From Actinomycetes bacterium (GTDB lineage: Bacteria > Actinomycetota > Acidimicrobiia > Acidimicrobiales > RAAP-2), in assembly GCA_021791145.1 (NCBI GenBank), contig JAJYXE010000008.1, positions 1-64,000 on the forward strand: 64,000 bases of DNA. The letters run 5' to 3'. This document shows, piece by piece, positions 15,532 to 46,553 of this stretch. Below the pieces are notes generated by a model, which worked only from the letters and a program-made list of their open reading frames with translations, did not search any database and was not told where the DNA came from. A program made the position numbers and the translations under genes. How positions within the stretch are numbered: position 1 is the first letter of the stretch; every line of letters starts with the position of its first letter.

Positions 15532-15556
15532 GGAGAGATTCTCGCGTGCCCGGCGC

Positions 15557-15562
15557 TACCCT
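15557..15562 (+). promoter_or_regulatory. -10 hexamer for a leaderless sirtuin mRNA
   Basis: TACCCT lies seven bases before the ATG at 15570. At that distance transcription would begin at or next to the start codon. No Shine-Dalgarno sequence precedes the gene, consistent with this reading. Confidence 0.5.
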
Positions 15563-15569
15563 GCGCCAG

Positions 15570-16466
15570 ATGGACCCGACCGGGCACGAGACCTCCCCTG
15601 CGACTCCCGCCGACGCCGCCCGAGCCGCGCCCGTCGACGCCGTGGTTGCCCAGCCCGCCGACGCCGCCCTCGAGACCGCGAAGCGCCTGCTCCGGGGGGC
15701 CCGGCAGGTCCTCGTCCTCACCGGCGCGGGGGTCTCCACCGGCGCGGGAATCCCGGACTTCCGAGGCCCAGAGGGGGTCTGGACGAAGGACCCGGCTGCC
15801 GAGCGCCTCTCCACGCTCAGCGCCTACATGGAGGACCCCCAGGTCAGGCGCCGAGCCTGGCTGGGGCGGCTGCACTCCCCGGTCTGGGCGGCCCAGCCGA
15901 CGGCCGGCCACCGCGCGCTGGTCTGCCTCGAGCGCCAGGGCAGGCTCTGTTTGCTCGTGACCCAGAACATCGACGGGCTCCACCAGCGCGCCGGCAACGA
16001 TCCCGAGCGCGTGGTCGAGATCCACGGGACCATCCGGGAGGTGGTCTGCATGGCCTGCGGCGAGCGAGGCCCCGCGGGGCCGACGCTCGAGCGGGTGGCG
16101 GCGGGCGAAGCGGACCCCGCATGCTCCGGCTGCGGCGGGATCCTCAAGTCGGCGACGATCAGCTTCGGTCAGTCCCTCGTCCCAGAGGACCTCGCCAGGG
16201 CGGAGGCGGCCGCGCGCCGGGCCGACCTCGTGCTCGCGGCGGGGACGAGCCTCGGCGTGTACCCCGCCGCGGGCCTCGTGCCGCTCGCGGTCTCCCACGG
16301 GGCGCGCGTGGTCATCGTGAACGCCGAGCCGACGCCCTTCGACGGCCTCGCCGACGCGGTCGTGCGCGCCTCGACCACAGAGGCGCTGCCGGCGATCGTG
16401 CCGGGCGTCCCGACGCCACGGGATCTCACGGGCTCGGGGGGTCCCGACGAAGGGCCCGCCGGATAG
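15570..16466 (+). CDS. Sir2-family NAD-dependent protein deacylase
   Basis: A 298-residue sirtuin. NAD-binding motifs are LTGAGVSTGAGIPDFRG and TQNIDGLHQRAGN, and the catalytic His is in EIHGTIREVVC. Zinc is held by CMACGE and CSGCGG, and AAGTSLGVYPA plus VIVNAEPTPFD complete the fold. It would remove acyl groups from lysines of metabolic enzymes. The ATG at 15570 is preferred over a GTG at 15546 because of the -10-like TACCCT just upstream. The first ~45 residues are Ala/Pro-rich and not conserved. Confidence 0.9.
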   Translation: MDPTGHETSPATPADAARAAPVDAVVAQPADAALETAKRLLRGARQVLVLTGAGVSTGAGIPDFRGPEGVWTKDPAAERLSTLSAYMEDPQVRRRAWLGRLHSPVWAAQPTAGHRALVCLERQGRLCLLVTQNIDGLHQRAGNDPERVVEIHGTIREVVCMACGERGPAGPTLERVAAGEADPACSGCGGILKSATISFGQSLVPEDLARAEAAARRADLVLAAGTSLGVYPAAGLVPLAVSHGARVVIVNAEPTPFDGLADAVVRASTTEALPAIVPGVPTPRDLTGSGGPDEGPAG

Positions 16467-16538: not shown

Positions 16539-17486
16539 TCAGCGAGAGCGCTCGGCGTGGTCCAACGCAGGCCCGACCTTCGCCCCCACCTCCCGAGCGT
16601 CCCGCTCGCGGGGCCCGAGCGACAGCACCATCCCCTCACGGGCCGCGAACACGCGGACGCCGGGCGCGGCGAGCTTTGAGACGAGCTCGTCGATCTGGTC
16701 GTCGGTGCGGTGCGGGTCGTGGTGGAACAGCGCGACCGCCCTCGCGCCGGCGGCGACACCCAGTCCGACGGCGTACTCGACGGCGCTGTGGCCGAGGAAG
16801 GCGAGCCGGGGCATCTCTGCGGCGGTGTGCTGGGAGTCGTGGATCAGCAGGTCGACGCCTTCTGCGAGCGCCAACGCCGCCGGGTGGTGCTCACCGAGCC
16901 CCTCGGGGCCCGGCCCGAGCGCGAGCGGCTTGTGGTCGGGCAGGTACGCGATCGACGTCACGCCGTCGGAGACCCGGTAGCCGAAGGTGCGGCTCCCCTT
17001 GTGGGGGATCTCGCGGGCGTCGATGCGGAACCCCTCGAGCTCGAAGGTGCCCGGCTCGATGCCGGTCACCGACCAGGCGTCGCCGAGTGTGCCGACCGGC
17101 ACGGGGAAGTGCGGGGGCGAGAAGGCCCGGTTCATCACGGTCTCGGCGTCGCCCGCGTCGCCCTGCCCGGGCACGTAGATGTCGACGCGGTGGCCCTCCA
17201 TGTAGGCCTCGCGCAGGAACGGGAGGCCGTGGGTGTGGTCCCAGTGAAGGTGGGTGATGCAGACGCTGCCCCGGAACGGCTCGCCGTCGAGCACCCGCTC
17301 CAGGTTGACGAAGCCGGTCCCCGCGTCCAGGACGAGATGCGGCGCGCTCTTGGCGGCGGCCGCCTCGCAGAAGCTCGTCGCCGTCCCCCGCCCGATGCCG
17401 ACGCAGGACGTCGCGGTGCCGTAGCGCTGGTACTCCGCTCCCGACACCGGGGTCGAGCCACGGCAGCCGAAGAAGAAGAGGTTCAT
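16539..17486 (-). CDS. MBL-fold metallo-hydrolase linked to the peptide export operon
   Basis: A 315-residue metallo-beta-lactamase fold protein of the RNase Z-like branch. The metal motif is THLHWDHTHGLPF, followed by a conserved Asp in LIHDSQHTAAEM and His residues in LGHSAVEYAV and LFHHDPHRTDD. The N-terminus FFGCRGSTPVSGAEYQRYG is shared by many uncharacterised bacterial homologues. Some relatives in this branch are cyclic nucleotide phosphodiesterases, but nothing here proves a substrate. It starts 29 bp after the stop of the PCAT gene, so it is probably the last gene of the peptide operon. The ATG at 17486 has GAGG at a workable distance; an ATG at 17495 is the alternative. Confidence 0.75.
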   Translation of the reverse strand: MNLFFFGCRGSTPVSGAEYQRYGTATSCVGIGRGTATSFCEAAAAKSAPHLVLDAGTGFVNLERVLDGEPFRGSVCITHLHWDHTHGLPFLREAYMEGHRVDIYVPGQGDAGDAETVMNRAFSPPHFPVPVGTLGDAWSVTGIEPGTFELEGFRIDAREIPHKGSRTFGYRVSDGVTSIAYLPDHKPLALGPGPEGLGEHHPAALALAEGVDLLIHDSQHTAAEMPRLAFLGHSAVEYAVGLGVAAGARAVALFHHDPHRTDDQIDELVSKLAAPGVRVFAAREGMVLSLGPRERDAREVGAKVGPALDHAERSR

Positions 17487-17515
17487 CGCGGGCATGGTCC
17501 TCGGGTCGGGCAGCG

Positions 17516-20500
17516 TCAGAGGTCGAGCTGCTGGGCGGTGAGGAGAAAATACAGCCCCCGGCGCGCGACCAGCTCGTCGTGGGTCCCCTGCTCGACGAGG
17601 CGTCCCCGATCGAGCACCAAGATGAGGTCGGCGTGGCGGACGGTGGAGAGGCGGTGGGCGATGATGATCGCCGTGCGGTCGCCGAGGAGCCGCCCCAGGT
17701 TCTCCTGGATCGCCCGTTCGGACTCCGCGTCCAGCGCGCTGGTGGCCTCGTCGAGCACGAGGAGCGCCGGGCGCCGGTAGAGGGCCCGGGCGATGGCGAC
17801 ACGCTGGCGCTGGCCTCCCGAGAGCGCGAGCCCCGACTCCCCCACCTTCGTCTGGTACCCGAGGGGGAGGCGCTCGATGAAGTCGGCGGCGTTGGCCAGC
17901 TGCGCGGCCTCTTGCACGCGTGCCGGGTCGAGCGGGGAGCCGAAGGCGATGTTCGCCTCGATCGTGTCGGAGAAGAGGTACGTCTCTTGGAGCACGAGCC
18001 CGATGTGGCTGCGCAGCTGGCGGTGGTCGAGCTGCGCCGCGTCCACCCCGTCGTAGCTCACGGTCCCCGACGTCGGCGACACCAGGGCCGCCACGCAGCG
18101 GGCGAACGTCGTCTTGCCCGACCCGCTCCGCCCCACGACCGCGACGGTGGCCCCCGCGGGGATGTCCACCGAGATCGAGTCGAGGACCGGCGGCGAGCTG
18201 TCCCCGTAGGAGAACGTCACGTCCTTCAAGGTGACGTGGCCGGAGATCGAGGGCACCGCCAACAAGTGCGAGCGGTCCTCCCCCTGCTCGGGCTCGGTGT
18301 CGAAGACGTCCTGGGCCCGGTCGGTGAGGGTCCGGGCGTGCTGGAAGCTGTCGGCGACGACCACCAGCTCTTGCATCGGCGCGGTCGCGAGCGCGACGAG
18401 CGTGACGCATGCCACGAGGCCGCCGATCGACAGCGACTTGCCGACGACCTCGGAGATCCCGATGGCGAGGAAGGCGGCCAGCAGCGCGAAACCCAGGCCC
18501 TGGGTCAGCGCCCCGTAGACGGCGCGCAGGCGGTCGACGCCGACCTGGCGCGCGTTGAGGGCGATCTGGTGGGCGACGAGCGCCTTTTGGAGCGGCTCCT
18601 CTGCGGCGAGCGCCTTGGCGGTCTCGATGCCTTTCACGACCTCGACCTGACGGGAGGCGTAGCGGGCTGCCTCCTCTTCCAGCGACGCCGTTGCAGGGAC
18701 GAGCCGCGCGAGGGACCAGCGCGTGACCATGAGGTACACGGGCACGGAGACGAAGAAGACGATCCCCATGACGGTGCTGTAGTAGAAGAGCAGCGCGACC
18801 GAGGCGAGCAGCTGCGCGCCGAGGGCGAGGCCGACGAGGCCGACGTCCATCACCGCGCCGCGCGCCATGGTCAGCCCGTCGAGACGCCGCTGCAGGTCGC
18901 CGGTCCGCCGTGAGGTGAAGTAGGCGAGCGGCAAGGACAAGAGCCGCTCGGAGAGGAGCTGCAGGCCGTCGCGATCGAGAGCGGCGGCGGTGCGCAGGAG
19001 CAGCAGGCGCTGGCCGAGCGTGCCCAGCGTGAGGACGATCGTCACGGCCGCGAGCACGGCGAGCACCGTGGCGAGGTCGGACCCTCCCCCACCCTTGGAG
19101 ATGCGGTCCACGACGATCTGGATGACGACCTCGAGGCTCAGCTCGATCGCGCTGAGCACGATCGCCATCGCCGCCACCGTCCCGATGTTGGCGAGGTGGG
19201 GCCTCACCAGGGGCCGGAGCCAGCCCATGCCCTGCAGGCGCGAGCCGCCGCGCTCGAAGCCCGGGCCGGGCTCGGCCTGGATAACGTAGCCGCTCCACTC
19301 CCTCTTGAACTCCTCGGGCGTGACGCGCCGGCGGCCGAGCGCGGGGTCGTCGAATGTCACCTGCTTGGGGCTGGTGCGCGTGACGACCACCCAGTGGTCG
19401 CCCTGCCAGTGCGCGATGAACGGGACCGGCAGTGCCTCGAGCGCGGACTTCGACGCCTTGACCACCCGTGCCTCGAAGCCGACTGCACGAGCGGCGCGCA
19501 GGATCCCCGCCGCGCTGGTGCCGTCGACCGTCGTCCCTACGAGCGTGCGCAGCCTGGACAGCGGGACCCGCTTGCCGTGGTACTGGCAGACCATCGCGAG
19601 CGCAGCCACGCCGCAGTCCATCTCGTCGATCTGGCGGATGACGGGGCGACGGCGGAGCCTTCTTCGAGCCGGGAGATCGGGCGAAGGACCATCGCCGGCG
19701 GGCTCGTGCGCGGGCTCGGCGACGTCGACCTCGACGCCTTCGAGACCGGGCGCCGCGGGCTCTCTTCCAGACCCCCCCGCGCCACGCCCGGGGGCGGGCC
19801 GCTGCCCCGCGGCGAGGTCGACGTAGGCCCCCAGCGCGACGCCCGCGCCGGGGCCGCCGCCAGGATCGTCAGCGAAGTCGAGGGGGACCCGAAGCTCCCG
19901 GCGCTGCTCGTAGACGGCTGCGAGCTCGCGGATCGCCTGCTCGAGCTCGGGGTGCCCGGCCACGATCTCGGCGAGGTCCCGGCGTCGCAGCCGGAGCAGC
20001 CGTGCGTCGGTCATCGCCTCGAGGACCTCGCCGGCGCCCATGTCGGCGACGAGCGCAGCCTCCCCGACGAGGTCCCCGCGGCGCGCGTAGCGCGGGAAGG
20101 CGCCCTCGTTGGCGGATCGGACGACGACCCGGCCCTCTTCGACGAGGTAGAGCGCGCCTTCGGCAGTCTCGGCAGGCTCGGCCCCGCCGCCTCCGACACC
20201 TTCTGCCCCGCCGCCCGCATCCCCCGTGCCACCGATCCTCAGCCGATCGCCTGCCGCGAGCTCGACAGGCTCCAGGCGGTCGACGAGCTCCGGCAGCGCC
20301 CGCCCGGCAAGTCGTGCGAGCGGTGACGCGAGCCGGAGCAGGTCGCCGATCTCGTGGCGGCGGCGGATACGCGACAGCCCCTCCATCACGCTCGGCTGGG
20401 TCGCCGCGAGCGCGCGAACGACCGACGCGTCGAGCCGGAGCGCGCTTCCCGGGGACGCCGCACGCACCGTCGAGGTGCGGGCCCCCTCGCGAAGGAGCGC

Positions 20501-20764
20501 GCCTTCCCCGAAGGTGGCGCCAGGGCCGAGCGTCGCGAGAGTCACCTCGCTGCCGTCCGCGCCGTCGCGGACGACCCGGACCCGCCCGTCGGTGAGCACC
20601 CAGTAGGAGTCCGCGGGGTCGCCCTCGCGCATGAGGACCGCGCCAAACTCGAAGTCGACGGGCTCGAAGGCTTGGACTACGAGCCTCCGGACGTCCGCGG
20701 GAAGGTCTCCCAACAGCTCGATACCGAGAGAGTCGAGTGCGGTCGTGGTCGCCGGCTCAGGCAC
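17516..20764 (-). CDS. Peptidase-containing ABC transporter (PCAT) with two N-terminal cNMP-binding domains
   Basis: A 1082-residue fusion. Residues ~15-130 form a Crp-type cyclic-nucleotide-binding domain with the phosphate cassette FGEGALLREGARTSTV. Residues ~155-290 form a second, degenerate one without the cassette Arg. Next comes a C39 peptidase: Cys384 in IRQIDEMDCGVAALAMV, His457 in GDHWVVV and Asp473 in FDDPALG. Then six TM helices and an ATPase domain with GRSGSGKTT, LSGGQRQR and LLVLDEATSALDAE. Such transporters cut leaders after a Gly-Gly pair and export the core, and the three KGG-leader peptides upstream are the obvious cargo. The GTG at 20764 overlaps the stop of the 382-residue gene by 8 bp. 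The two nucleotide-binding domains suggest export gated by a cyclic nucleotide. Confidence 0.92.
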   Translation of the reverse strand: MPEPATTTALDSLGIELLGDLPADVRRLVVQAFEPVDFEFGAVLMREGDPADSYWVLTDGRVRVVRDGADGSEVTLATLGPGATFGEGALLREGARTSTVRAASPGSALRLDASVVRALAATQPSVMEGLSRIRRRHEIGDLLRLASPLARLAGRALPELVDRLEPVELAAGDRLRIGGTGDAGGGAEGVGGGGAEPAETAEGALYLVEEGRVVVRSANEGAFPRYARRGDLVGEAALVADMGAGEVLEAMTDARLLRLRRRDLAEIVAGHPELEQAIRELAAVYEQRRELRVPLDFADDPGGGPGAGVALGAYVDLAAGQRPAPGRGAGGSGREPAAPGLEGVEVDVAEPAHEPAGDGPSPDLPARRRLRRRPVIRQIDEMDCGVAALAMVCQYHGKRVPLSRLRTLVGTTVDGTSAAGILRAARAVGFEARVVKASKSALEALPVPFIAHWQGDHWVVVTRTSPKQVTFDDPALGRRRVTPEEFKREWSGYVIQAEPGPGFERGGSRLQGMGWLRPLVRPHLANIGTVAAMAIVLSAIELSLEVVIQIVVDRISKGGGGSDLATVLAVLAAVTIVLTLGTLGQRLLLLRTAAALDRDGLQLLSERLLSLPLAYFTSRRTGDLQRRLDGLTMARGAVMDVGLVGLALGAQLLASVALLFYYSTVMGIVFFVSVPVYLMVTRWSLARLVPATASLEEEAARYASRQVEVVKGIETAKALAAEEPLQKALVAHQIALNARQVGVDRLRAVYGALTQGLGFALLAAFLAIGISEVVGKSLSIGGLVACVTLVALATAPMQELVVVADSFQHARTLTDRAQDVFDTEPEQGEDRSHLLAVPSISGHVTLKDVTFSYGDSSPPVLDSISVDIPAGATVAVVGRSGSGKTTFARCVAALVSPTSGTVSYDGVDAAQLDHRQLRSHIGLVLQETYLFSDTIEANIAFGSPLDPARVQEAAQLANAADFIERLPLGYQTKVGESGLALSGGQRQRVAIARALYRRPALLVLDEATSALDAESERAIQENLGRLLGDRTAIIIAHRLSTVRHADLILVLDRGRLVEQGTHDELVARRGLYFLLTAQQLDL

Positions 20765-21905
20765 GTCTGGTCACCCAGCGGTCGATTGCCGCCTGCACGC
20801 GCTCTTGCACGCAGAGCTCGACGGCGAGGGCGGCGTCGTCGGGATGGTCCGCGCTCGGATGCCGGCGTGCTCGGACGACGGCGACGACGCCAGGGTCTTG
20901 GGATGTCCCGACGAGCACCGGGCTGTCGATCGGCGCGGAGATGGCGACGGCACGCGTGCGGGCGTCGAGGTCCTCGGCGCGTACGACCGCGTCGTCGGCC
21001 TCGACACGGGCCAGCTCGGCGACCGCGCCGAGCGGCATGGCGTCGTCCCGCATGGTCGCGACCGCCTCCCGGGCCGCGTCGAGCGTGCCGAAATCCGCCC
21101 ACTCGAGCGCCACCTGCACCCATGCCGCAGCGTTCCCCGTGACCGCTCGCTCGATGTCGGCTCGCGGGACCGGCACGCTCGCGAGCTCGTCGGCGGCACG
21201 TCGCAGCGCCTCGAAGCGGCCGCGTGCGGGCGGGGGCGAGCCGCCCGTGCGCTCCGCCCACGAGGCTACGACGCGCACGAGATCCGACGCTGCCTCCTCG
21301 AGGTCCCCTGAGCAAACGACCTCGACCCACGTCGCCTGCTCGTCGACGGCCCGTGTGAGGCGCGACGGCGTCGCCGCGGCCTCGCGCCTGAGCGTCCGGT
21401 CGAGCCAGTCCACCCACTCCTCCTCGGAGATCCCCCAGTGCGCGAGCCACCGCAGGAGGTCCTCACCGGCGACCAGGTGCCGGGCACGGCGAAACTGCTG
21501 CGCCTGGGCGCGCAACCGGTCGGCTGACGGCGCGGCGACGCCGTCTGCCGCGAGGCTCGCGCCTTCTGCGGCGCGGCGAGCAGCCATCGCCCATGAGCCG
21601 TCGTCACGCATCCAACCGACCACGTCCTCCCACGTGAACTGGGTGCCGCAGGAGGCCAGCACCACCTCGTCGAGCGGCGCGCCAGGAAGGCGCACCGAGA
21701 GCGCGACCGCCAGGTCCTGCGACGCGCTCTCGTCCGGGGTCGACGACGCATCGCGCGACGCGGGGTCCCAGCCGTCCCGGTCGAGCCGGGACGTGGTCGT
21801 CTGGACGGCGGTTGCGTTGCCCGTCACCGTCGGCGCCAGGGCCGATGGCGGCGTCGCTCCACCATCAGCAGCGCTCCGCTTGCTCCCCCGACTCCGGAAC
21901 GGCAT
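20757..21905 (-). CDS. Unrecognised 382-residue protein of the peptide export operon
   Basis: I do not recognise this family with confidence. The protein is soluble, with no signal peptide or TM helix. The first ~65 residues are low-complexity and basic. A helical middle follows (LASCGTQFTWEDVVGWMRDD, HLVAGEDLLRWLAHWGISEE). The C-terminus, from IDSPVLVGTSQDPGVVAVV to VQERVQAAIDRWVTRR, is vaguely like the end of PpiC/SurA-type proteins found in some peptide maturation loci. Translation starts at ATG 21905, where GGAGG sits seven bases upstream; longer in-frame starts lack such a site and one lies inside a hairpin. It overlaps the transporter gene by 8 bp, so the two are co-translated. A role in binding, escorting or modifying the precursor peptides is inferred from position only. 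Confidence 0.7.
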   Translation of the reverse strand: MPFRSRGSKRSAADGGATPPSALAPTVTGNATAVQTTTSRLDRDGWDPASRDASSTPDESASQDLAVALSVRLPGAPLDEVVLASCGTQFTWEDVVGWMRDDGSWAMAARRAAEGASLAADGVAAPSADRLRAQAQQFRRARHLVAGEDLLRWLAHWGISEEEWVDWLDRTLRREAAATPSRLTRAVDEQATWVEVVCSGDLEEAASDLVRVVASWAERTGGSPPPARGRFEALRRAADELASVPVPRADIERAVTGNAAAWVQVALEWADFGTLDAAREAVATMRDDAMPLGAVAELARVEADDAVVRAEDLDARTRAVAISAPIDSPVLVGTSQDPGVVAVVRARRHPSADHPDDAALAVELCVQERVQAAIDRWVTRRA

Positions 21906-21969
21906 CTCGTCCCTCCGCGCCCGTTCGTCGGGCGCCGACATTGCACCACAATCTGCGCGTCTGCGCGCC

Positions 21970-21996
21970 GGTGCGGCCGCTCGTGGCGGCCGCACC
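21970..21996 (-). terminator. Strong hairpin after peptide gene A
   Basis: GGTGCGGCCGC and its exact complement flank a 5-base loop (11-bp stem). It lies between peptide gene A and the 382-residue gene and has no T-run after it. It may act as a partial terminator or RNA-stability element giving much more peptide mRNA than transporter mRNA. An identical stem follows peptide gene B. Confidence 0.55.
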
Positions 21997-22049
21997 GATC
22001 GGTACTGCCCTCTGCGGCGCCTGGTGCGGCGACCGCTGGTCCCGGCTCC

Positions 22050-22214
22050 CTACCGCCCGCGGAAGAACTTGGCTCCCTTGGCGCCCTTCAACCCCTTGGC
22101 GCCCTTGGCGCCCTTGGCGCCCTTGGCGCCTCCGCCCTTCACGTTCTCGGCCTCTTCGTCGGTGGCCTCGAGGTCGTCGGTCAGCTCGTTGTCGATGTCC
22201 TTCGGCGTGGTCAT
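22050..22214 (-). CDS. KGG-leader peptide A with Gly-x-Lys repeat core
   Basis: A 54-residue precursor peptide. Residues 1-28 are an acidic leader ending DLEATDEEAENVKGG, a double-glycine site of the kind cut by C39 peptidases. The predicted 26-residue core is seven perfect G-x-K triplets (six GAK, one GLK) and the tail FFRGR. The core has no Cys, Ser, Thr or acidic residue and a charge of about +9. GGGAGAA precedes ATG 22214. It lies upstream of the 382-residue protein and the PCAT, and a Crp-like palindrome lies 90 bases upstream of its start. The lack of modifiable residues argues against a lanthipeptide; it could be an unmodified cationic peptide or one modified on Lys. No family name is known to me. 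Confidence 0.85.
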   Translation of the reverse strand: MTTPKDIDNELTDDLEATDEEAENVKGGGAKGAKGAKGAKGLKGAKGAKFFRGR

Positions 22215-22303
22215 TTCGGGTTCTCCCTTGCAGGTTTTCGGATTCTGGTGCCCTCCGGGATCGGCCCGGTGATTCAATCGTAAGGCGCTCGGATGATCCC
22301 GTC

Positions 22304-22319
22304 TATCACCTCGCTGACA
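22304..22319 (-). promoter_or_regulatory. Crp-like palindrome upstream of peptide gene A
   Basis: On the minus strand this reads TGTCAGCGAGGTGATA, a slightly degenerate copy of the near-palindrome found before gene B. It is part of a longer conserved block at 22301-22320. It lies 90 bases before the start codon, so it is likely an operator or part of the promoter. Confidence 0.55.
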
Positions 22320-22386
22320 CAGTCGAAGAGCTCGTGGTGACGGAGCGCCCACCGCATCCCACCGCCTCGATCGGCCACGACGCGCC

Positions 22387-22413
22387 GGTGCGGCCGCTCA
22401 AGGCGGCCGCACC
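22387..22413 (-). terminator. Strong hairpin after peptide gene B
   Basis: The same 11-bp stem as at 21970-21996 with a different 5-base loop. The sequence between stem and stop codon is also nearly identical in the two copies, showing that the 3' flanks were duplicated together with the genes. Confidence 0.6.
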
Positions 22414-22465
22414 GATCGGTACTGCCTCTGCGGCGCCTGGAGCGGCGGCCGCTGGTCCCGGCTCC

Positions 22466-22630
22466 CTACCGCCGACGGAAGAACTCCAACTTGGCACCCT
22501 TTGCTCCCTTGGCACCCTTTGCTCCCTTGGCACCCTTCAAGCCCTTGGCGCCTCCGCCCTTCACGTCCTCGGCCTCTTCGTCGGTGGCCTCGAGGTCGTC
22601 GGCAAGTTCGCTCTTGATCTTCTCGGACAT
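22466..22630 (-). CDS. KGG-leader peptide B with Gly-x-Lys repeat core
   Basis: A 54-residue precursor, paralogous to peptide A. The leader (residues 1-26) ends DLEATDEEAEDVKGG. The predicted 28-residue core again has seven G-x-K triplets, the second being GLK, and ends LEFFRRR. Charge is about +9, with no Cys, Ser or Thr in the core. GGGGGAG lies a few bases before ATG 22630. Its position 416 bp from gene A, with matching promoter-side element and 3' hairpin, shows a tandem cassette duplication. Confidence 0.85.
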   Translation of the reverse strand: MSEKIKSELADDLEATDEEAEDVKGGGAKGLKGAKGAKGAKGAKGAKLEFFRRR

Positions 22631-23242
22631 TTCAGCTCCCCCTCTACTCACTTTCGAGATCTTGTGGGACCGGGATCTTCCCGGCAGGATCATCGTATTC
22701 CCGGCTCGGAATTTGGTCTATCAGCTCGCTGACACTGCGCACGACTCCGAGCTGACACACCTGGAGAGCTCCTTTGGGCTGAGATGTCGAAGGGCCGCAA
22801 CGCTCAACAGGCGGACACGGCAGGCCGCCCTGGGGAGCGGGTTCGCCAGAGGCCTAGAGCAAGCCCGAAAGAGGTAGGCCCAGATGGGCTCACGGGCCCA
22901 GGCAGCATCCGTGCAGCCTCGGCGGGCCGGTGCGGCCACGGCAGCACTGGCGGGCCGGTGCGGGCCACGGCAGCCCAGGCGGGCCTGTGCGCAACGGCTC
23001 GACGAGCGCGGGCGAGACTTTTCAAAGTCCGCCGCGCCGTGTCGGATCCTGATCGATCAGCTCGTGATCGAGGCTGGTCGGCTGCACGCGGCAGCCAGAC
23101 CAGCTGTGGGGGTTGCTCCGGTCGGCGTCGAGCGGCTCCCGGGACCGGATCGCTTTCGACGTCCGGACAGCCCGCGACGTCCGGACAACCCGCATCGCCC
23201 GCGGCGTCCGGATCGCCCGGATCCCCTGCGGCGCGCGAGTCC
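22631..23242. other. Intergenic region between peptide genes B and C
   Basis: This 612-bp stretch holds the operator of gene B near 22719-22734. The rest is low-complexity, with degenerate repeats such as ggccggtgcggccacggcag (22925-22985) and gacgtccggacagcccgcg-like units (23155-23225). I looked on both strands for another leader ending in KGG and found none. Frames of up to 240 codons cross the region but none has a plausible start or recognisable protein. Confidence 0.6.
22719..22734 (-). promoter_or_regulatory. Crp-like palindrome upstream of peptide gene B
   Basis: On the minus strand this reads TGTCAGCGAGCTGATA. The two halves match as an inverted repeat at every position but one per arm outside the central two bases. 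The TGTCA-N6-TGATA geometry is that of Crp/Fnr family operators. It is 89 bases before the start codon. A Crp/Fnr-type gene lies at the upstream end of the locus. Confidence 0.6.
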
Positions 23243-23395
23243 CTAACGGCGCTTGAAGAAGGACAGCTTCTCGGTTTTCTTCGCCGCGAGAAACTTCTCC
23301 GCCTTCGCTGCGCCGCCCTTGACGCTCTCGGCGTCCTCCTCGGTGGCCTCGAGGTCACCCACGAGCTCGCCCTTGATGTCCTTGGCTGTCGTCAT
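23243..23395 (-). CDS. KGG-leader peptide C with divergent basic core
   Basis: A 50-residue precursor with the same leader type (DLEATEEDAESVKGG at residues 14-28). The predicted 22-residue core is not a Gly-Lys repeat: it is an amphipathic Lys/Ala/Phe-rich stretch ending SFFKRR, with net charge about +6. The shared ending (F-F-x-x-R) across all three cores suggests a conserved function or recognition tag. GGGGGAG sits seven or eight bases before ATG 23395. It is the first peptide gene after the Crp/Fnr-type regulator. Confidence 0.82.
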   Translation of the reverse strand: MTTAKDIKGELVGDLEATEEDAESVKGGAAKAEKFLAAKKTEKLSFFKRR

Positions 23396-23475
23396 GCCTT
23401 CTCCCCCTGCTCTCCAAGATGGGTTCCCGGGACCGCCCCGGCGCCAACATGGTACGGCCGGGCGGTACACCGGTC

Positions 23476-23491
23476 TATCAGCGGCGTTGCA
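23476..23491 (-). promoter_or_regulatory. Degenerate Crp-like site upstream of peptide gene C
   Basis: The right half and flank (GCTGATAGACC on the minus strand) match the elements before genes A and B; the left half is diverged. It is 81 bases before the start codon, similar to the other two. Confidence 0.45.
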
Positions 23492-23549
23492 CGACGGATG
23501 TCGTCCACCTGACACTCCCGCGCCTGTGCGAGCGGCGAGGACGTCTCGT

Positions 23550-23660
23550 CCCTATCTCGACATAACTCTTCTCTCGGCCTGTCTCGAGCTCGCGGTGCCT
23601 ATCTCTCGGCCTGTCTCGATCTCTCGGCCTGTCTCGAGCTCGCGATGCCTATCTATCGGC
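23550..23660. repeat. Short degenerate repeats before and into the regulator end
   Basis: Three copies of a unit around tctcggcctgtctcgagctc, interleaved with gcctatct, fill the gap between peptide gene C and the stop of the Crp/Fnr-type gene. No gene or clear terminator is seen. Confidence 0.7.
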
Positions 23661-24308
23661 GCGCCTCTGGAGAGCGTCGGGGTCGACCAGCTCGACCCGG
23701 CCGCGTCCGACCCGGACCCACCCCCGCTCCTCTACCTGGCGGAGCACCTTGTTGGTGGTGGGACGGGTCGTGCCGGCGAGCCCAGCCAGGTCCTCCTGGG
23801 TGAGCGGGACGACACAGCCGGGGACCGGACCGTCCCACAACCTGGAGGCGTCGAGGAGCCGTCGCAGCACCCGGGTCTCTACCGGCGTGTACATCGCCTC
23901 GACGAGCGACTCCGAGAGACGGCGCACCTGATCTCCGAGCGCCTTGAGCAGAATCTCGTTGACCGCGGGAAAGCGGCGGCGGAGGTCTGTGAACTCGTCC
24001 TTGCGCACCGACAGGGTCTCGGCGCGCTCGAGGGCAACGATGCCCGCGCTGCGCTGAGGGCGAGACCCGTCGAGGAGCGCGAGGATGCCGAAGTAGTCGC
24101 CCGGACCGATGAGTGCCAGCATCGCCGTGGCTCCAAGCGAGGTCTCAACCCGCACACAGAACCGTCCGGTCGCCACGAAGTGCAAGGTGTCCCCCGGATC
24201 GCCTCCGTGGAAGACCACCTCACCCTTGTCGAAGCGCCGGCGGCGCGCAACCGAGAGGAAGTGCCGACGGTCCTCCTCGGGAACCATTTCAAGGAGCGGC
24301 CAGTCCAC
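23649..24308 (-). CDS. Crp/Fnr-family transcriptional regulator
   Basis: A 219-residue regulator of typical Crp length. Residues ~10-125 form the cyclic-nucleotide-binding-type beta roll, and a C-terminal winged helix follows (TQEDLAGLAGTTRPTTNKVL then RQVEERGWVRVGRGRVELVD). The cassette reads FGILALLDGSRPQRSAG, so the Glu that contacts cAMP ribose in Crp is replaced; ligand may differ or be absent. The start is a GTG at 24308 with no ribosome binding site. It sits upstream of the three peptide genes on the same strand. Palindromes of Crp-like geometry precede those genes, making it their likely regulator. Confidence 0.85.
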   Translation of the reverse strand: MDWPLLEMVPEEDRRHFLSVARRRRFDKGEVVFHGGDPGDTLHFVATGRFCVRVETSLGATAMLALIGPGDYFGILALLDGSRPQRSAGIVALERAETLSVRKDEFTDLRRRFPAVNEILLKALGDQVRRLSESLVEAMYTPVETRVLRRLLDASRLWDGPVPGCVVPLTQEDLAGLAGTTRPTTNKVLRQVEERGWVRVGRGRVELVDPDALQRRADR

Positions 24309-24814: not shown

Positions 24815-26290
24815 ATGGGACGGCTCCGAAGGCGGCTGGGTGTGGGTGCGGCCGGGATGGTGCTCGCGGCAGGCGGCCTCGTGGTGGCGGGCACCGCGGG
24901 GGTTGCCGGCGCAGTTGTCACCGGTGCCGGTGCGGCGGCAGCGCCCGCGCATGCGGCAAGCGGGGGGCTCGTGGTGCACCCTGGGGTCCGCGAGCTGGGG
25001 TTCGTCGCCTCGACACAGCCGCCCAGCGAGCTGTACTGCACGGCCAACTACGGCATCCTCTGCTACGGCGCGCCGCAGATCGAGACCGCGTACAACGAGC
25101 AGCCGCTCTTCCGAGAGGGGCTGACCGGGCGCGGCGAGACGATCGTCATCGTCGACTCCCTGGGCGCCCCGGCGATCCGCCAGGACCTCGCCGTGTTCGA
25201 CCGGTCCTACGGGCTCGCCCCTCCGCCGCGCTTCTCGATCCTCAAGTACGGCGCGGTGCCCGCGTACACACCCTCCAACCCAACAGCGACAGGCTGGGCA
25301 GAGGAGACGACGCTCGACGTCGAGTGGTCGCACGCGATGGCGCCGGGCGCCAACATCCTGCTCGTCGAGACCGCGACGCCCGAGACGGTGGGCACGACAG
25401 GCTTCCCCACAATCGTCAATGCCGAGAACTACGTGATCAACCATCACCTCGGCTCGGTGATCAGCCAGAGCTTCGGGGCAGGCGAGACGACCTTCAAGTC
25501 CCCTGCCACAATCCTCGGCCTCCGCAGCTCCTTCGAGAACGCCTACCGCAACGGGATCACGGTCCTCGCAGCCGCGGGAGACTCGGGCGCCGCTGAGGAG
25601 CAGACAGTCACAGGAGCGCATTACTTCCCGTTCCCCGAGGCCGGCTGGCCCGCCTCGGACCCGCTCGTGACCGCGGTCGGCGGCACGCGGCTGACGCTCA
25701 ACACACGAGGCCGGCCCACTGCGCCGACCCAGGTATGGAACGACACCACACTGTTCGGCAGTCCTGCCGCCTCCGCAGGCGGCCTCTCCATGGTGTTCAC
25801 CCGACCCTCGTACCAGAACGGCGTGGCGGGGGTGGTCGGCAACCGTCGCGGGGTGCCCGACATCTCCATGAGCGCCTCGGTGTCCGGAGCGGTCAACATC
25901 TACATCAGCGGCCTTCCCTTCGGCGCGGGGTGGGCCTCCATCGGGGGGACCAGTGAGGCAACGCCCCTCTTCGCTGGCATCGTGGCGATCGCCGATCAGC
26001 TCAACACACATCATGCGCTGGGCATGATCGACCCCGCGCTCTACGCGATGAAGGCCGCGCACGACCCCGGGATCGTGCCCGTGACGACAGGCAACAACTC
26101 GGTCTGGTTCACAACATCGGGACACCGGGTCACAGTCCCGGGGTACTCGGCAGCCCCGGGGTACAACCTCGCGGTAGGGCTCGGCACGGTGACAGCCCCG
26201 ATGTTCGTCCGTGAGCTGGTCCAGACCGTCCACCGCGTGGGCACCGCCGTCTCGTACGGCTCCTCCGCGACCTTCCTGCCGCACGCGTAG
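24815..26290 (+). CDS. Secreted sedolisin-like (S53) serine-carboxyl peptidase
   Basis: A 491-residue exported peptidase. A Sec-type signal (LGVGAAGMVLAAGGLVVAGT) ends near APAHAASG. The mature part has the S53 catalytic Glu and Asp in EETTLDVEWSHAMAPGA, the SQSFGAGE segment, and the catalytic Ser in GGTSEATPLFAGIVAIADQL. Family members are active at acidic pH and degrade proteins outside the cell. The usual long pro-domain before the catalytic domain is almost missing: only ~50 residues separate signal and the first conserved segment, which is unusual. The ATG at 24815 follows a purine-rich ribosome binding site. Confidence 0.82.
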   Translation: MGRLRRRLGVGAAGMVLAAGGLVVAGTAGVAGAVVTGAGAAAAPAHAASGGLVVHPGVRELGFVASTQPPSELYCTANYGILCYGAPQIETAYNEQPLFREGLTGRGETIVIVDSLGAPAIRQDLAVFDRSYGLAPPPRFSILKYGAVPAYTPSNPTATGWAEETTLDVEWSHAMAPGANILLVETATPETVGTTGFPTIVNAENYVINHHLGSVISQSFGAGETTFKSPATILGLRSSFENAYRNGITVLAAAGDSGAAEEQTVTGAHYFPFPEAGWPASDPLVTAVGGTRLTLNTRGRPTAPTQVWNDTTLFGSPAASAGGLSMVFTRPSYQNGVAGVVGNRRGVPDISMSASVSGAVNIYISGLPFGAGWASIGGTSEATPLFAGIVAIADQLNTHHALGMIDPALYAMKAAHDPGIVPVTTGNNSVWFTTSGHRVTVPGYSAAPGYNLAVGLGTVTAPMFVRELVQTVHRVGTAVSYGSSATFLPHA

Positions 26291-27281: not shown

Positions 27282-30200
27282 CTACACCTTCTCGAGCCAG
27301 GCCCGCACCCCGTCTGGGCCATCGACGTCGAGCGCGACCGCCTCGCCGGGTCCTGGTCCTTCGGCCACGGCGAGGGCGAGCACCTCTTGGGCGATGTCCT
27401 CGAAGAGCGCCGGGTCGACCCCGGAGAGCCACAGCCGGATCCTGTCGGACACCTCGAGGCCCCGCTCCTTGCGCAGCTCTTGGAGCTGGCGGACGAGCTC
27501 GCGCACGAGCCCGCGCCGGGAGAGGTCGTCGTCCAGGGCGAGATCGAGCGCGACCACGGCGCTCCCCTCCCGGGAGACCGCGAAGCCGGCCTGTCCCCGG
27601 ACACGGACCTGGACCTCGTCTGGCCCGAGGGCGACGGGTCCGCTCGACAGCTCGACGGTGACCTGGCCGCCGCCGTCGAGCGCGGCAGCTGCCTTCGTGG
27701 CGTCCAGCGCGCCGAGCGCGCCGCGCACCTCCTTCACCGCCTCGCCGAGGCGGGGGCCGAGGATCCGGAAGTTCGGCACGAGCTCCAAGCTGACCGCCCC
27801 GCCCAGCTCGTCGACCTCGACGACCTCGTCGACATTGAGCTCGTCGGCGACGATGTCGGCGAGCACGCCGGGCGAACCGGGGGCGAGGAAGACGAGCGCC
27901 CGGGAGAGCGGCTGGCGGACCTTCACCCCCGCCTCGCTGCGCGCGGCCCGTCCGAGCGAGGAGAGCTGCATCGCAAGGGCCATCTGCGCCTCGAGATCGG
28001 GGTCGATCGCCGTCTCGTCGAAAGTGGGCCACCGTTGGAGGTGGACGGAGTCGTCGTCTGCGGCCGCGAGGTCGAGCTCGCGCCACAACCGGTCCGCCAC
28101 GAACGGGCAGAACGGCGCCAGCATGAGGCAGACGGCGACGAGCGCCTCGTAGAGGGTGGCCTGTGCGGCGAGCGCGTCGGACGGCGGGGCGTCGGGGTCC
28201 GTGCGCCAGAACCGCCGCCGGCTCCGCCGGACGTACCAATTCGACAGGTCGTCGACGAGCCGGTCGAGCGCGCTCGCAGCGGCCAGCGGCTCGTAGTCGT
28301 CGAGCGCGGAGGTGACCGCCGAGATCGTCGACATCACCCGTGACCTCGCCCACCGGTCGAGCGCGCCGCGCGAGGACGGCGGGGGGACCTGGGCGTCGCC
28401 CGGATCAAACGCGTTGAGCGCCGCGTAGGTCGAAAAGAAGCTCGACGTGTGCCAGAGCGTGAGGAGCATCTCGCGCATGGACGTGTCGATGGCGCGCGTG
28501 CTCACCCGCGTCGCGGTCCACGGAGAGCCCTGGGAGAACATCCACCAGCGGAGCGGGTCCGCGCCGCGGCTCACGACGAGCTCCCAGGGGTCGACGACGT
28601 TGCCGAGCGACTTGGACATCTTGCGGCCGTCGGCGTCCACGAGGAGCCCGAGGACCATCACGTGGCGGTAGGGCGCCTTCCCGAAGACGAGGTCGTTGAC
28701 GGCGAGCAGCGAGTAGAACCAGCCGCGGGTCTGGTCGATGCCTTCGACGATGAAGTCGGCCGGGAACTGCATCGCCTCCTTCGACCCGCGCACATGGGGG
28801 TAGCCCACCTGCGCGGCGGGCATCGACCCCGAGTCGAACCACGCGTCGATCACCGGTTCGACGCGCCGCGCGTCGGAGACCGGGAGCTCGGACGCGACGG
28901 AGCCGATCGCCGCGCCCGCCGCCGCCTCCGCCCCGGCGATCGACGCGCACACCGGGCAGGGGAAGACCACCTCGTCGATGGCGGGCCGGTGCGGGTCGAC
29001 CGAAGAGAGGTCCCGACCGGCCAGCTCGGCGAGCTCGGCCATCGAACAGACGCAGGTGACGTGGCCTTCCTCGCAGCGCCAGATCGGCAGCGGCGTGCCC
29101 CAGTAGCGGTCGCGCGACAGCGCCCAGTCGACGTTGTTCGCCAGCCACTCGCCGAACCGTCCGTCCTTGATGTAGGCCGGATGCCAGTCGACCTTCTGGT
29201 TGGCCGCGATGAGGTCGGCCTTGCGCGACGAGGTCGCGACGTACCAGCTCGGCTTCCCCCAGTAGATGAGCGCGGTGCCGCACCGCCAGCAGTGCGGATA
29301 GGTGTGCGTGTAGAAGTGCCGGCGCAAGAGGAGCCCGCGGGGCTCGAGCGCGTCGTTGACCAAGTCGTTGGTCTCACGGACCGGGCGTCCTGCGAACGGC
29401 TCGCCCGCGGCCGCCGTGAACCTGCCGTCGGGACCGACCGGGTTGAGCGTCGGGAGCCCCTGGAGCCTGCCGACCTCGCGGTCGATCTCCCCGAACGCCG
29501 GCGCCAGGTGCACGAGCCCGGTGCCCTCGTCGGTGGTCACGAAGTCGGCGAGCACCACGCGCCAGCCCCGCGCGGCGTCCTCGCTCGAGACAAAGACCGC
29601 GTCGAACGGCCGCTCGTAGCGCAGGCCCTCGAGGTCGCGCCCGCGCACGTGGCGCGTCGCCCGGGAGCGCGCGCCGTCGCCCAGCACCTCGTCGGCGAGG
29701 TCCGCGGCCAGGATCATCTGGTCGACCACCACGTAGTCGAGGTCCGGGTGGGCCGCGATCCCCGTGTTGGAAAGGAGCGTCCAGGGCGTCGTGGTCCACA
29801 CGAGGAGCCACTTGGCGTCGCCCACGACCGCGGGGTCGGGATCGACGATCCGGAGCTTCACGTACGCCGACTCGTCCTCCTCGTCGGTGTACACCTCGGG
29901 CTGGCCCAGCTCGTGGCTCGAGAGCGCGGTCCCACAACGCGGGCAGTAGGGCACGACCTTCAGGTCCTCGTAGAGGAGTGTCTTGTCGAAGAGCTGCTTC
30001 AGGTACCACCAGACCGACTCGATGTAGGTCCGGTCGAAGGTCCAGTAGGCGTGGTCGAGGTCGGTCCAGTAGCCGATGCGCTCGGTGAGCGTGTTCCACT
30101 CCTTCACGTAGCCGAGCACCGACTCCCGGCACAGCCGGACAAACTCGGCGATCCCGACTTCCTCTTCGATCTGGCGCTTGCTGTTGATGCCGAGGCGCTT

Positions 30201-30491
30201 CTCGACCTCGACCTCGACGGGGAGGCCGTGGGTGTCCCAGCCGGCGCGGCGCTCCACGAGGAACCCGCGCATCGTGCGGTAACGGCAGAAGAGGTCCTTG
30301 TACACACGGGCCCAGACGTGGTGGAGACCCGGACGGTTGTTGGCGGTCGGGGGGCCCTCGTAGAAGACCCAGGGCTGCGCGCCCTTTCGCTGCGCCACCG
30401 AGCGCTCGAAGACCCGGTGCGTGCGCCAGCGCTCGAGCTCCTCGGTCTCGAGGGCGACGAAATCGGCGTCGGTCGGCAGCGGACGGAACAT
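27282..30491 (-). CDS. ileS: Isoleucyl-tRNA synthetase
   Basis: A 1069-residue class I synthetase charging tRNA(Ile). The HIGH-equivalent is in GPPTANNRPGLHHVWAR, the KMSKS loop in DGRKMSKSLGNVVDPWE, and the CP1 editing domain carries WLLVWTTTPWTLLSNTG. The C-terminal anticodon domain (SNWYVRRSRRRFWR) is followed by a long tail without the zinc-finger of the E. coli type. Those traits and the length match type 2 (archaeal/eukaryote-like) IleRS, which in other organisms tolerates mupirocin. No strong ribosome binding site precedes ATG 30491. Confidence 0.96.
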   Translation of the reverse strand: MFRPLPTDADFVALETEELERWRTHRVFERSVAQRKGAQPWVFYEGPPTANNRPGLHHVWARVYKDLFCRYRTMRGFLVERRAGWDTHGLPVEVEVEKRLGINSKRQIEEEVGIAEFVRLCRESVLGYVKEWNTLTERIGYWTDLDHAYWTFDRTYIESVWWYLKQLFDKTLLYEDLKVVPYCPRCGTALSSHELGQPEVYTDEEDESAYVKLRIVDPDPAVVGDAKWLLVWTTTPWTLLSNTGIAAHPDLDYVVVDQMILAADLADEVLGDGARSRATRHVRGRDLEGLRYERPFDAVFVSSEDAARGWRVVLADFVTTDEGTGLVHLAPAFGEIDREVGRLQGLPTLNPVGPDGRFTAAAGEPFAGRPVRETNDLVNDALEPRGLLLRRHFYTHTYPHCWRCGTALIYWGKPSWYVATSSRKADLIAANQKVDWHPAYIKDGRFGEWLANNVDWALSRDRYWGTPLPIWRCEEGHVTCVCSMAELAELAGRDLSSVDPHRPAIDEVVFPCPVCASIAGAEAAAGAAIGSVASELPVSDARRVEPVIDAWFDSGSMPAAQVGYPHVRGSKEAMQFPADFIVEGIDQTRGWFYSLLAVNDLVFGKAPYRHVMVLGLLVDADGRKMSKSLGNVVDPWELVVSRGADPLRWWMFSQGSPWTATRVSTRAIDTSMREMLLTLWHTSSFFSTYAALNAFDPGDAQVPPPSSRGALDRWARSRVMSTISAVTSALDDYEPLAAASALDRLVDDLSNWYVRRSRRRFWRTDPDAPPSDALAAQATLYEALVAVCLMLAPFCPFVADRLWRELDLAAADDDSVHLQRWPTFDETAIDPDLEAQMALAMQLSSLGRAARSEAGVKVRQPLSRALVFLAPGSPGVLADIVADELNVDEVVEVDELGGAVSLELVPNFRILGPRLGEAVKEVRGALGALDATKAAAALDGGGQVTVELSSGPVALGPDEVQVRVRGQAGFAVSREGSAVVALDLALDDDLSRRGLVRELVRQLQELRKERGLEVSDRIRLWLSGVDPALFEDIAQEVLALAVAEGPGPGEAVALDVDGPDGVRAWLEKV

Positions 30492-44696: not shown

Positions 44697-46553
44697 CTAC
44701 GGCTTGAACGACCATGTCTCGGGGTAGATGTGGCCGGTCGAGTCCTGCGCGGACACCCCCCTCAGCTTGGTTGAGATGGCCGAGATCTGGTAGGCGGCAT
44801 TGGGGAACCACAGGTCGGGAAGCTGCTTCGCAACGTACTCCTGGTACTTGTAGAGCGTCTTCAGTGACGCCGAGTTCCCTTGGGATTCGATCTGTGTGAG
44901 ATAGGCGTTAACCCGCCGGTTGCAGTAATTCCCCCCATTGGTGGCGCCCCCGCAGCCGAAGAGGCTTGTACCGTCAGGGTAGTAGATCGGGACGTAGGTG
45001 TACACGGGCGAGGAGATGATCGAGAGCACCGGCGTGTTGGTAGGGCATGTCGCCGCCTTCTTGCCGATGCAGGCGTAGCCGTCGGAGAGGACCGTGTTCT
45101 CCGGTGCCTCCGACAGTGTGAGGTGGATGCCCGCCTTGGCGTATGTCGAACGCATCACCTGGATCTCGTTGTCGATGTCGGGAAAGCCGCTCGGGTACAT
45201 GAACGAGACGGCCAGCTTCGCTCCCTTCGCGATCCCCTTCCCGCATCTACCAGGTCCTGTGCCCGGTCTTGCGCACACGTCAGTGGCCCCGGCGTGGATG
45301 TTCCAGCCATGAGACTTAAGCAGCTTCTTCGCCTTGGCCACCGAGAATGGGTAGGGGTTCTTAGTCTCGGCCTTGGCCAAGAAGTCGGTCTTCGGGAAGG
45401 TCGGCACTGGGCCGTAGGTCGGGGTCCCGTACTTCTCGAGGATCGTCTTGATGTAGAGCGGCTGGTTGATCGAGGTCTGCATCGCCTGGCGGATGTAGAG
45501 CTGGCTCACGAGGGCCTGGTACTTCGGGTTGTTGAAGAGAATCCCGATAAAGGTGAGCCCCCACTCGTACCAGGGATCGACCTTGAAGCCCGAGGCCTTC
45601 AACGAGGCGAGCGCCCCGATGTCTGTGGTAGGGACATAGCCGTAGTCGACGCTGCCCGACCGAAGGGCGTCGTACTCGGCCGTCGCACTCGTGAATGGCA
45701 ACTCCTCGAACTTGGCCGCTTTCGGCTTGTTCGGACCTGAGTATTTGGTGTTGGGGATCATGGTCACTTTGCCCGTCACCTGGAAGCCGGTTGTCGGCTC
45801 CAGCCGCCATGGTCCATCGACCACCTGCCACAGCGGTGTCGTGTCCCAGGTGGAGAGCGAAAGAGACCGGGAGTTCAAGAAGGTGTAGACCGACTTGGCT
45901 CCCGCCGCGGTCGTGTCGTATGTGCCGACTGGGCTGGAGGCTGACGTCTTGTCCCAGGCCTGCTGGGGCATGGGAGTCAGAGTAGCCAGGCCGTTGTAGA
46001 GCAGATAGGTCTGGTTGTACGCCTTGGTCATTGTGAGAACGAAGGTTGTCGTGCCCTTGGCCGAGTAGCCGGCGACGTGTGTCATCCAGCCGCCGGGCAC
46101 GTACCCGGCGTAATTTGTCTTCTCGTTCATCACGAGGTTCATCCAGAACACCAGGTCCCTGGCGGTCACCGGCGCACCTGTCGACCAGACGTAGTGCTTC
46201 AGCTTCATGGTGACAGTCTTGCCACCGTTGGAGAACACCGGCGGGTCGGCCATCGAGAGCTTGTAGTTGATCGTCGCGGCACTGGATGTCGGGTGGCCAA
46301 ACCAATAGAGGGGGAGCCACATGAGGGGCTGAAGGTAGGTGATGTCGGAGTTCTGCGAGTTGGCTCCGTTGTACAAGGGGAAGATGTACGTTGGCGGCGA
46401 CCCAGGCTGTTCGGCAAAGGTGAGGGTTCCCCCGCTCTTGGCGGTGCGATGCGCCCCGGCGGCCTGCGCGCCGTCCGTGCCGACAACAACCGACACCGCG
46501 CCGACGGTGCAGGCCGCCGCAACCCACACGAGAAGTCGTCGGAACAAGCGCAT
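44697..46553 (-). CDS. Peptide ABC transporter substrate-binding protein (family 5)
   Basis: A 618-residue exported binding protein. The signal peptide (RLFRRLLVWVAAACTVGAVS) probably ends at AQA-AGAH; there is no lipobox, so anchoring is unclear. The mature protein follows the SBP_bac_5 plan: GGTLTFAEQPGSPPTYIFPL, TVTMKLKHYVWSTGAPVTAR and GPWRLEPTTGFQVTG. The long fold accommodates peptides of two or more residues. First gene of the operon with dppB, dppC, the D-aminopeptidase, the hydrolase and the regulator. Confidence 0.9.
   Translation of the reverse strand: MRLFRRLLVWVAAACTVGAVSVVVGTDGAQAAGAHRTAKSGGTLTFAEQPGSPPTYIFPLYNGANSQNSDITYLQPLMWLPLYWFGHPTSSAATINYKLSMADPPVFSNGGKTVTMKLKHYVWSTGAPVTARDLVFWMNLVMNEKTNYAGYVPGGWMTHVAGYSAKGTTTFVLTMTKAYNQTYLLYNGLATLTPMPQQAWDKTSASSPVGTYDTTAAGAKSVYTFLNSRSLSLSTWDTTPLWQVVDGPWRLEPTTGFQVTGKVTMIPNTKYSGPNKPKAAKFEELPFTSATAEYDALRSGSVDYGYVPTTDIGALASLKASGFKVDPWYEWGLTFIGILFNNPKYQALVSQLYIRQAMQTSINQPLYIKTILEKYGTPTYGPVPTFPKTDFLAKAETKNPYPFSVAKAKKLLKSHGWNIHAGATDVCARPGTGPGRCGKGIAKGAKLAVSFMYPSGFPDIDNEIQVMRSTYAKAGIHLTLSEAPENTVLSDGYACIGKKAATCPTNTPVLSIISSPVYTYVPIYYPDGTSLFGCGGATNGGNYCNRRVNAYLTQIESQGNSASLKTLYKYQEYVAKQLPDLWFPNAAYQISAISTKLRGVSAQDSTGHIYPETWSFKP

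Follow-up and report, generated by a model that had tools for sequence, protein, structure and literature searches.

A putative export locus for double-glycine-leader peptides, with a Crp-type regulator and a cNMP-domain transporter, in an Acidimicrobiales bacterium

We analyzed a 64,000-nucleotide stretch of DNA (here, the window) from an Acidimicrobiales bacterium (GenBank assembly GCA_021791145.1, contig JAJYXE010000008.1, positions 1 to 64,000) and focus on a locus at 16539..24308 that may serve the secretion of small peptides. It consists of seven genes, all on the minus strand. Read in the direction of transcription, they encode a Crp/Fnr-family regulator of 219 amino acids (Crp; 23649..24308; PF00027, 72.6 bits, and PF13545, 59.4 bits); three precursor peptides with double-glycine (GG) leaders, p1 (23243..23395), p2 (22466..22630), and p3 (22050..22214); an apparently cytosolic, parvulin/SurA-related protein of 382 residues, P382 (20757..21905), remotely related to TIGR04500/MirC; a peptidase-containing ATP-binding cassette (ABC) transporter (PCAT) of 1082 residues (17516..20764), made up of two cyclic nucleoside monophosphate (cNMP)-type domains, a C39 peptidase, an ABC membrane domain, and an ATPase; and a metallo-beta-lactamase (MBL)-fold hydrolase that is RNase Z/PhnP-like (16539..17495; PF12706, 59.6 bits). 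The P382 and PCAT genes overlap by 8 nucleotides (nt), and the MBL gene, probably part of the same operon, follows PCAT after a gap of 20-29 nt, its start perhaps lying at 17486 as in the homologue of a related genome (G001 in our numbering). Neither P382 nor p1 to p3 reach the cut-off of any family in Pfam or NCBIfam. A first-pass annotation, made from the sequence without database searches, had placed these seven genes on one strand; all are present, and the leader and the gene order recur in other genomes, so the arrangement is more than chance.

A GTDB-based contig scan returned one locus, in an Acidimicrobiales metagenome-assembled genome (G001). In whole-genome profile searches, G001 and G448 gave clear P382 homologues, G242, G510, G513, G539, G030, and G015 gave remoter ones, and a scan with TIGR04500 added a partial homologue in G1104. 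Profile matches were found in 2/397 genomes of the order, 5/172 of the family, and 11/395 of the class, 8 of those 11 being of PPIC type; because so few genomes match, the P382 family is rare among the genomes sampled. The eight genomes with weak profile matches were dropped from the P382 tally, as their proteins were of PPIC type (8/8 sequences inspected, 3/8 by Pfam).

The gene neighborhood could be assessed at nine loci (the window, G001, G242, G510, G513, G539, G030, G015, and G1104); the G448 contig ends inside P382 before any PCAT, and the P382-like gene of G1104 is cut by the contig end. At all nine, the P382 homologue adjoins a PCAT that has, by alignment, two N-terminal cNMP domains, with the order of the two genes reversed in G1104. 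GG precursors are present at 10/10 loci. The MBL gene stands beside PCAT in the window and G001 only, and no MBL homologue was found in the examined stretches of G242, G510, G513, G539, G030, G015, and G1104. These results support P382, PCAT, and the GG precursors as one conserved system. The first-pass annotation had proposed their co-occurrence as a check, which came out as predicted; of the single export system that it described, the three-part core holds together across genomes, and the MBL hydrolase was seen with it in the window and G001 only.

Each leader ends in KGG, after 28, 26, and 28 residues in p1, p2, and p3, respectively. The core of p1 is a cationic peptide of 22 residues, and those of p2 and p3 are seven Gly-X-Lys units followed by LEFFRRR and FFRGR, the p3 core being GAKGAKGAKGAKGLKGAKGAKFFRGR. 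Tandem repeats of 9 bp encode the Gly-X-Lys units (window 22490-22537 for p2 and 22068-22130 for p3), and the number of units is lower by two in P0034 and by one in P0030, both of them near-identical precursors. Tandem repeats of 29 bp and 18/27 bp also lie in the p1-p2 intergenic region (22913-22991 and 23157-23233). Precursors of the window's clade form a set of 16 distinct sequences with a leader consensus of about 28 residues (MTT.KDI..EL..DLEATDEEAE.VKGG). Aligning 15 of them gave a mean column entropy of 0.67 bits for the leader (28 columns) versus 2.16 bits for the core (22 columns): leaders are conserved and cores are hypervariable. Cys is absent from all 16 cores, net charge is +4 to +9 in 14, and 4, including p3, have no Asp or Glu; p1 and p2 contain Glu. 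No residue pattern is common to the cores.

Precursors at the remoter loci are diverse. The core in G242 is His-rich, the one in G030 has four Cys, and G015 has two cores of 10-12 residues with one Cys. In G510, G513, and G539, the leader ends in GG and is followed by a core of only 4-5 residues (MHEF, VMFE, FTFEG, and MNLRE). The genes for these tiny-core precursors lie at L013 10431-10550, L014 10568-10684 and 11025-11144, and L015 10840-10953. Their short open reading frames might be annotation artifacts instead of real precursors, and they are indeed very short and number only four. We regard this as very unlikely, given that the GG leader is conserved in 4/4, that a near-consensus sigma-70 promoter, TTGACA-N17-TCTAAT, and a purine-rich ribosome-binding site (both read from the sequence) precede each of the four, and that all lie upstream of the P382/PCAT pair. 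In the G1104 locus (L066 44-7886), a LanB-type gene (TIGR03891) and a tandem array of four GG precursors, whose short cores are of the T..C type, stand in a row with a two-cNMP PCAT and the truncated P382-like gene; because this lanthipeptide-type locus carries the same pair, P382/PCAT may be a portable export module.

The transporter matches PF03412 (134 bits), PF00664, PF00005, and PF00027, the last in two stretches, and its whole C39-ABC part matches bacteriocin-transporter and ComA structures. The best NCBIfam model for that part is TIGR03796 (NHLP/NHLM), yet the score of 512.4 bits is below the cut-off of 853.3, and p1 to p3 match no NCBIfam family. The C39 Cys/His/Asp residues, which we take to be catalytic, are intact in 9/9 PCATs together with Walker A and LSGGQ, and with all three domains in one chain the window transporter qualifies as a PCAT. 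Both cNMP-binding-like domains seen in the first pass are real, but in the window only domain 1 keeps the Glu and Arg that presumably line the ligand site; its motif FGE...R..TVRA is kept in 9/9. We infer that a nucleotide may gate the transporter through domain 1.

A related-protein search with P382 scored 7997 candidates, and among the matches listed were at least 26 P382-related proteins, the window's own first; the two that carry an organism name belong to Acidimicrobiales, and none of the 26 has a Pfam domain. Against TIGR04500, the best P382 relative (G539) scores 23.3 bits (3.3e-5), short of the curated cut-off of 180 bits, and by this test P382 is not a TIGR04500 member. The P382 profile does align over 55 residues to a protein of G994, the sole TIGR04500 member above cut-off. 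The family profile also matches eight proteins from the class (L020-L027; E values of 4e-5 to 6e-4) that are PPIC/SurA-type and lipoprotein-like, with the similarity lying over a rotamase-like region, and the three of these run through Pfam carry rotamase domains (PF13616/PF00639). Seven of the eight contain a strongly hydrophobic stretch that could serve as an export signal (highest 17-residue hydropathy mean, ≥2.1), whereas P382 has none (1.21). P382 had been noted as unrecognized, yet it is not without known relatives: it seems to be a cytosolic protein remotely related to parvulin/SurA-type proteins and to TIGR04500. It might act as a cytosolic chaperone or in leader handling.

Upstream of p2, p3, two G001 peptides, and the G448 peptide we found a shared element, G[T/A]GTCAGCGAG[C/G][C/T]GATAGAC, whose core pattern TGTCA-N6-[T/C]GATA has Crp half-site spacing. 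The operators of p2 (22716..22734) and p3 (22301..22319), both on the minus strand like the other promoter features here, match TGTCA-N6-TGATAGAC exactly and are followed by a predicted −10 hexamer TACGAT (22692..22697 and 22277..22282, respectively). For p1, the operator/−35 region reads TGCAACGCCGCTGATAGAC (23473..23491; 2 mismatches), with a degenerate left half, and the predicted −10 hexamer is TACCAT (23449..23454). Reading across the six promoters, TANNAT lies 18 nt after the operator in 6/6 and an extra GTCA box lies 23 nt upstream in 5/6. The operator overlaps a poor −35 element, and its center is near −41.5, which we take to be the class II position, if transcription starts ~7 nt downstream of the −10 box. 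With ≤2 mismatches allowed, the window holds five operator matches versus 1.10 expected, the sole two exact ones being those before p3 and p2. Genome-wide at the same threshold, the operator occurs twice in G001 and once in G448, in every case upstream of a GG peptide, and the reversed control gave 0 matches. The second G001 operator stands before another GG-peptide gene, which comes immediately after the Crp homologue and so mirrors the order of Crp and p1 in the window. GC-rich hairpins that look like terminators or stabilizers lie behind p2 (22387..22413; fold z of −2.20 for the stretch) and p3 (21970..21996; the same hairpin, z of −3.84 for the stretch), and also behind the second G001 peptide; because of these strong hairpins, all three peptide genes look like separate transcription units.

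Crp has both a cNMP domain and a Crp helix-turn-helix domain, as expected of a Crp/Fnr regulator, and its closest solved relatives are regulators of this family (e.g., 4cyd, 5e-26). Homologues are 84% identical in G001 and 87% identical in G448. In G001, ~13 kb separate this gene from the precursor linked to P382 and 15 kb separate it from the transporter; the G448 homologue is on a contig other than that of P382, with no GG peptide seen behind it. A remoter Crp-type gene (29% identity) is downstream of the peptide in G242, and G510, G513, G539, and G030 have no Crp homologue at 1e-10. In G015, a 51% identical Crp homologue shares contig C31 (L079-L082) with LanB and LanC-like genes, and the P382 locus is on C17. 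Beside Crp in the window are a subtilase-like secreted peptidase (24818-26290) and ileS (27282-30491); by eye, the peptidase recurs next to the homologue in G448 (L078) and ileS in G001 (L077).

No enzyme for ribosomally synthesized and post-translationally modified peptides (RiPPs), including LanM/LanB/LanKC, YcaO, and radical SAM enzymes, is visible among the annotated locus genes. Seven of eight related genomes lack LanB, and the same count holds for LanC-like and for YcaO; G015 is the only one of the eight to have them, on contigs that differ from that of its P382 locus. The locus does not resemble a known lanthipeptide system (no Cys in the clade's cores, LanB and LanC-like in 1/8 genomes each), a YcaO-type one (enzyme in 1/8 genomes), or a graspetide one (no synthetase in the locus, acidic acceptors absent in 4/16 clade cores). 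That RiPP enzymes are lacking, as the first pass had it, was confirmed for those tested, in the locus and in most of the related genomes tested; in the window's clade, the P382/PCAT pair stands without a recognizable maturase.

The locus had also been taken as apparently undescribed, which is too strong: two reports present a cNMP-fused PCAT, HetC (PMC10986499), and a TIGR04500 partner beside a PCAT (PMC13097080). No description of this exact gene set turned up in the literature searched, which largely excluded subscription papers. The latter report shows that the graspetide synthetase MirB depends on MirC, a member of TIGR04500 whose C-terminal domain is SurA-like, and the rosaritide cluster pairs MirC with the PCAT MirD. 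The window likewise has a SurA-like protein, by remote sequence match, beside a PCAT and a precursor; the difference from MirC as described there is that the similarity of P382 relatives lies in the C-terminal, SurA-like portion and scores far below the TIGR04500 cut-off, with no ATP-grasp synthetase alongside. TIGR04500 proteins are also reported among graspetide-locus neighbors in PMC8939145. HetC of Nostoc, like the window PCAT, has an N-terminal cNMP-type domain before C39; this domain is reported to bind ppGpp in vitro and to be required in vivo (PMC10986499). That account gives HetC a single such domain and no known substrate, whereas the window transporter has two, with candidate substrates, a chaperone-like partner, and a likely regulator and operator close by. 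Because these parts lie together in the window locus, nucleotide gating of peptide export becomes directly testable. The locus further shows a TIGR04500-like partner outside graspetide synthesis, suggesting a broader role in the handling of GG precursors.

We read the locus as Crp-activated, chaperone-assisted, and perhaps nucleotide-gated export of probably unmodified GG peptides, and from sequence evidence we put the probability of this reading at roughly 55%. On this view the locus would be devoted to secreting small peptides with GG leaders and would need no recognizable RiPP-modifying enzyme. Judging from promoter anatomy, Crp would activate the peptide promoters from the operator near −41.5, each peptide being driven by its own promoter, with a GC hairpin after p2 and p3. 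The acidic leader would be recognized by P382, as a SurA/parvulin-derived cytosolic chaperone, and by PCAT; the C39 domain would cut behind GG, and the transporter would export the core, probably unmodified. Domain 1 could open the transporter in response to a cyclic nucleotide or to ppGpp, the in vitro ligand of HetC. The MBL hydrolase would be accessory, with a role in nucleotide turnover no better than a guess. Because the cores are short and variable, the products may act in communication or antagonism. More tentatively, and with odds that we consider well short of even, the loci may represent a family of nucleotide-gated, chaperone-assisted exporters whose peptides stay unmodified or undergo minimal processing, those of 4-5 residues among them. 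Expression of the precursors would be turned on by a single Crp-type regulator, and the exporter would open on a nucleotide signal. Such systems would serve signaling or antagonism in Acidimicrobiia, with the P382/cNMP-PCAT pair as a portable module also found in a lanthipeptide-type locus.

Several observations weigh against the export reading. P382 itself has no Pfam or NCBIfam match and no TIGR04500 match at E≤1, a search of PDB sequences with its profile gave no convincing match, and its suggested SurA/parvulin link rests on remote profile matches. The hhalign comparison of the P382 family with the eight PPIC-type proteins gives 96.7% over the rotamase-like region, a value that is not independent because the same profile had found those proteins, and only 66% with the window's own clade alone. 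The PCAT next to the G994 TIGR04500 protein lacks cNMP domains, and the P382/PCAT pair can work with modified peptides, because G1104 has LanB alongside and MirC serves a graspetide synthetase. As to control by nucleotides, proposed at both transcription and export in the first pass, a link between the Crp-type regulator and the peptide promoters is supported within the window's clade, but the ligand sites fit less well. In the Crp cassette, FGILALL..QRSAG, we read the Arg as kept and an Ile where solved relatives carry Glu-type residues. We take this Glu and Arg of the phosphate-binding cassette to be the cAMP ligand-site residues, and a Crp without the Glu does not look like a cAMP-responsive one. 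In PCAT domain 2, the Arg is kept in 2/9 (G030 and G1104) and is absent in the window. Upstream of p1 there is only the right half of the shared operator, and two window matches with 2 mismatches (40520 and 45812) have no visible link; because the tiny-core clade has ordinary TTGACA/TCTAAT promoters, Crp control looks clade-specific. The enzyme absences have bounds of their own. The graspetide synthetase TIGR04187 was found in 0/6 related genomes, with G030, G015, and the window's genome outside that search; radical-SAM SPASM-type maturases are missing among the annotated locus genes, with no genome-wide search made; the absence counts rest on related genomes of unstated completeness; and an unlinked modifying enzyme elsewhere in the window's genome is possible.

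Such an enzyme, or an unrecognized one, would make the locus part of a RiPP pathway in which P382 is a MirC-like partner and the MBL hydrolase or a distant gene does the modifying. The requirement for MirC in graspetide formation (PMC13097080), the LanB-type enzyme and T..C cores beside the G1104 pair, and the Cys in the G030 and G015 cores point this way, but the rarity of LanB, LanC-like, YcaO, and TIGR04187 in the related genomes, the composition of the clade's cores (no Cys, Asp/Glu missing from a quarter, no common pattern), and the failure to find an MBL homologue in the seven relatives' stretches make it rather doubtful. Whether Crp and MBL belong to the system at all is a related matter. 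If only precursor, P382, and PCAT did, with Crp and MBL having other jobs and the promoters answering another regulator, then the distance of Crp from the P382 locus in G001, its separate contig in G448, its keeping of a subtilase-like neighbor (by eye in relatives), and the patchy adjacency of MBL to PCAT would be accounted for. An operator with Crp half-site spacing at a class II position, found in G001 and G448 solely before GG peptides and once directly behind the Crp gene, argues otherwise, and we consider this reduced system unlikely.

The nature of the product leaves somewhat more room for disagreement. Class II bacteriocin-type export combines a GG leader and a PCAT with no modifying enzyme in the locus. 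The window has the same three traits, to which its system adds cNMP domains, P382, a Crp operator, and, in one clade, tiny cores. That the products are cationic antimicrobial peptides akin to class II bacteriocins, not signals, would agree with the net charge of most of the clade's cores and with the differing number of Gly-X-Lys repeats between near-identical precursors. The neutral or acidic cores of 4-5 residues in another clade are, however, unlikely pore formers, and no immunity gene was recognized among the annotated locus genes; we regard the antimicrobial role as a serious possibility that we nonetheless lean against.

Outside the seven genes, a Sir2-type deacylase (window 15546-16466) is convergent with the MBL gene and is syntenic in G001. 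An oligopeptide-binding gene (SBP_bac_5; window 44697-46553) lies some 20 kb from Crp, and others stand next to a GG peptide in G001 (L077 998-2923) and next to P382 in G242 (L004 8767-10938). Re-uptake of the exported peptide is a possible function of these genes.

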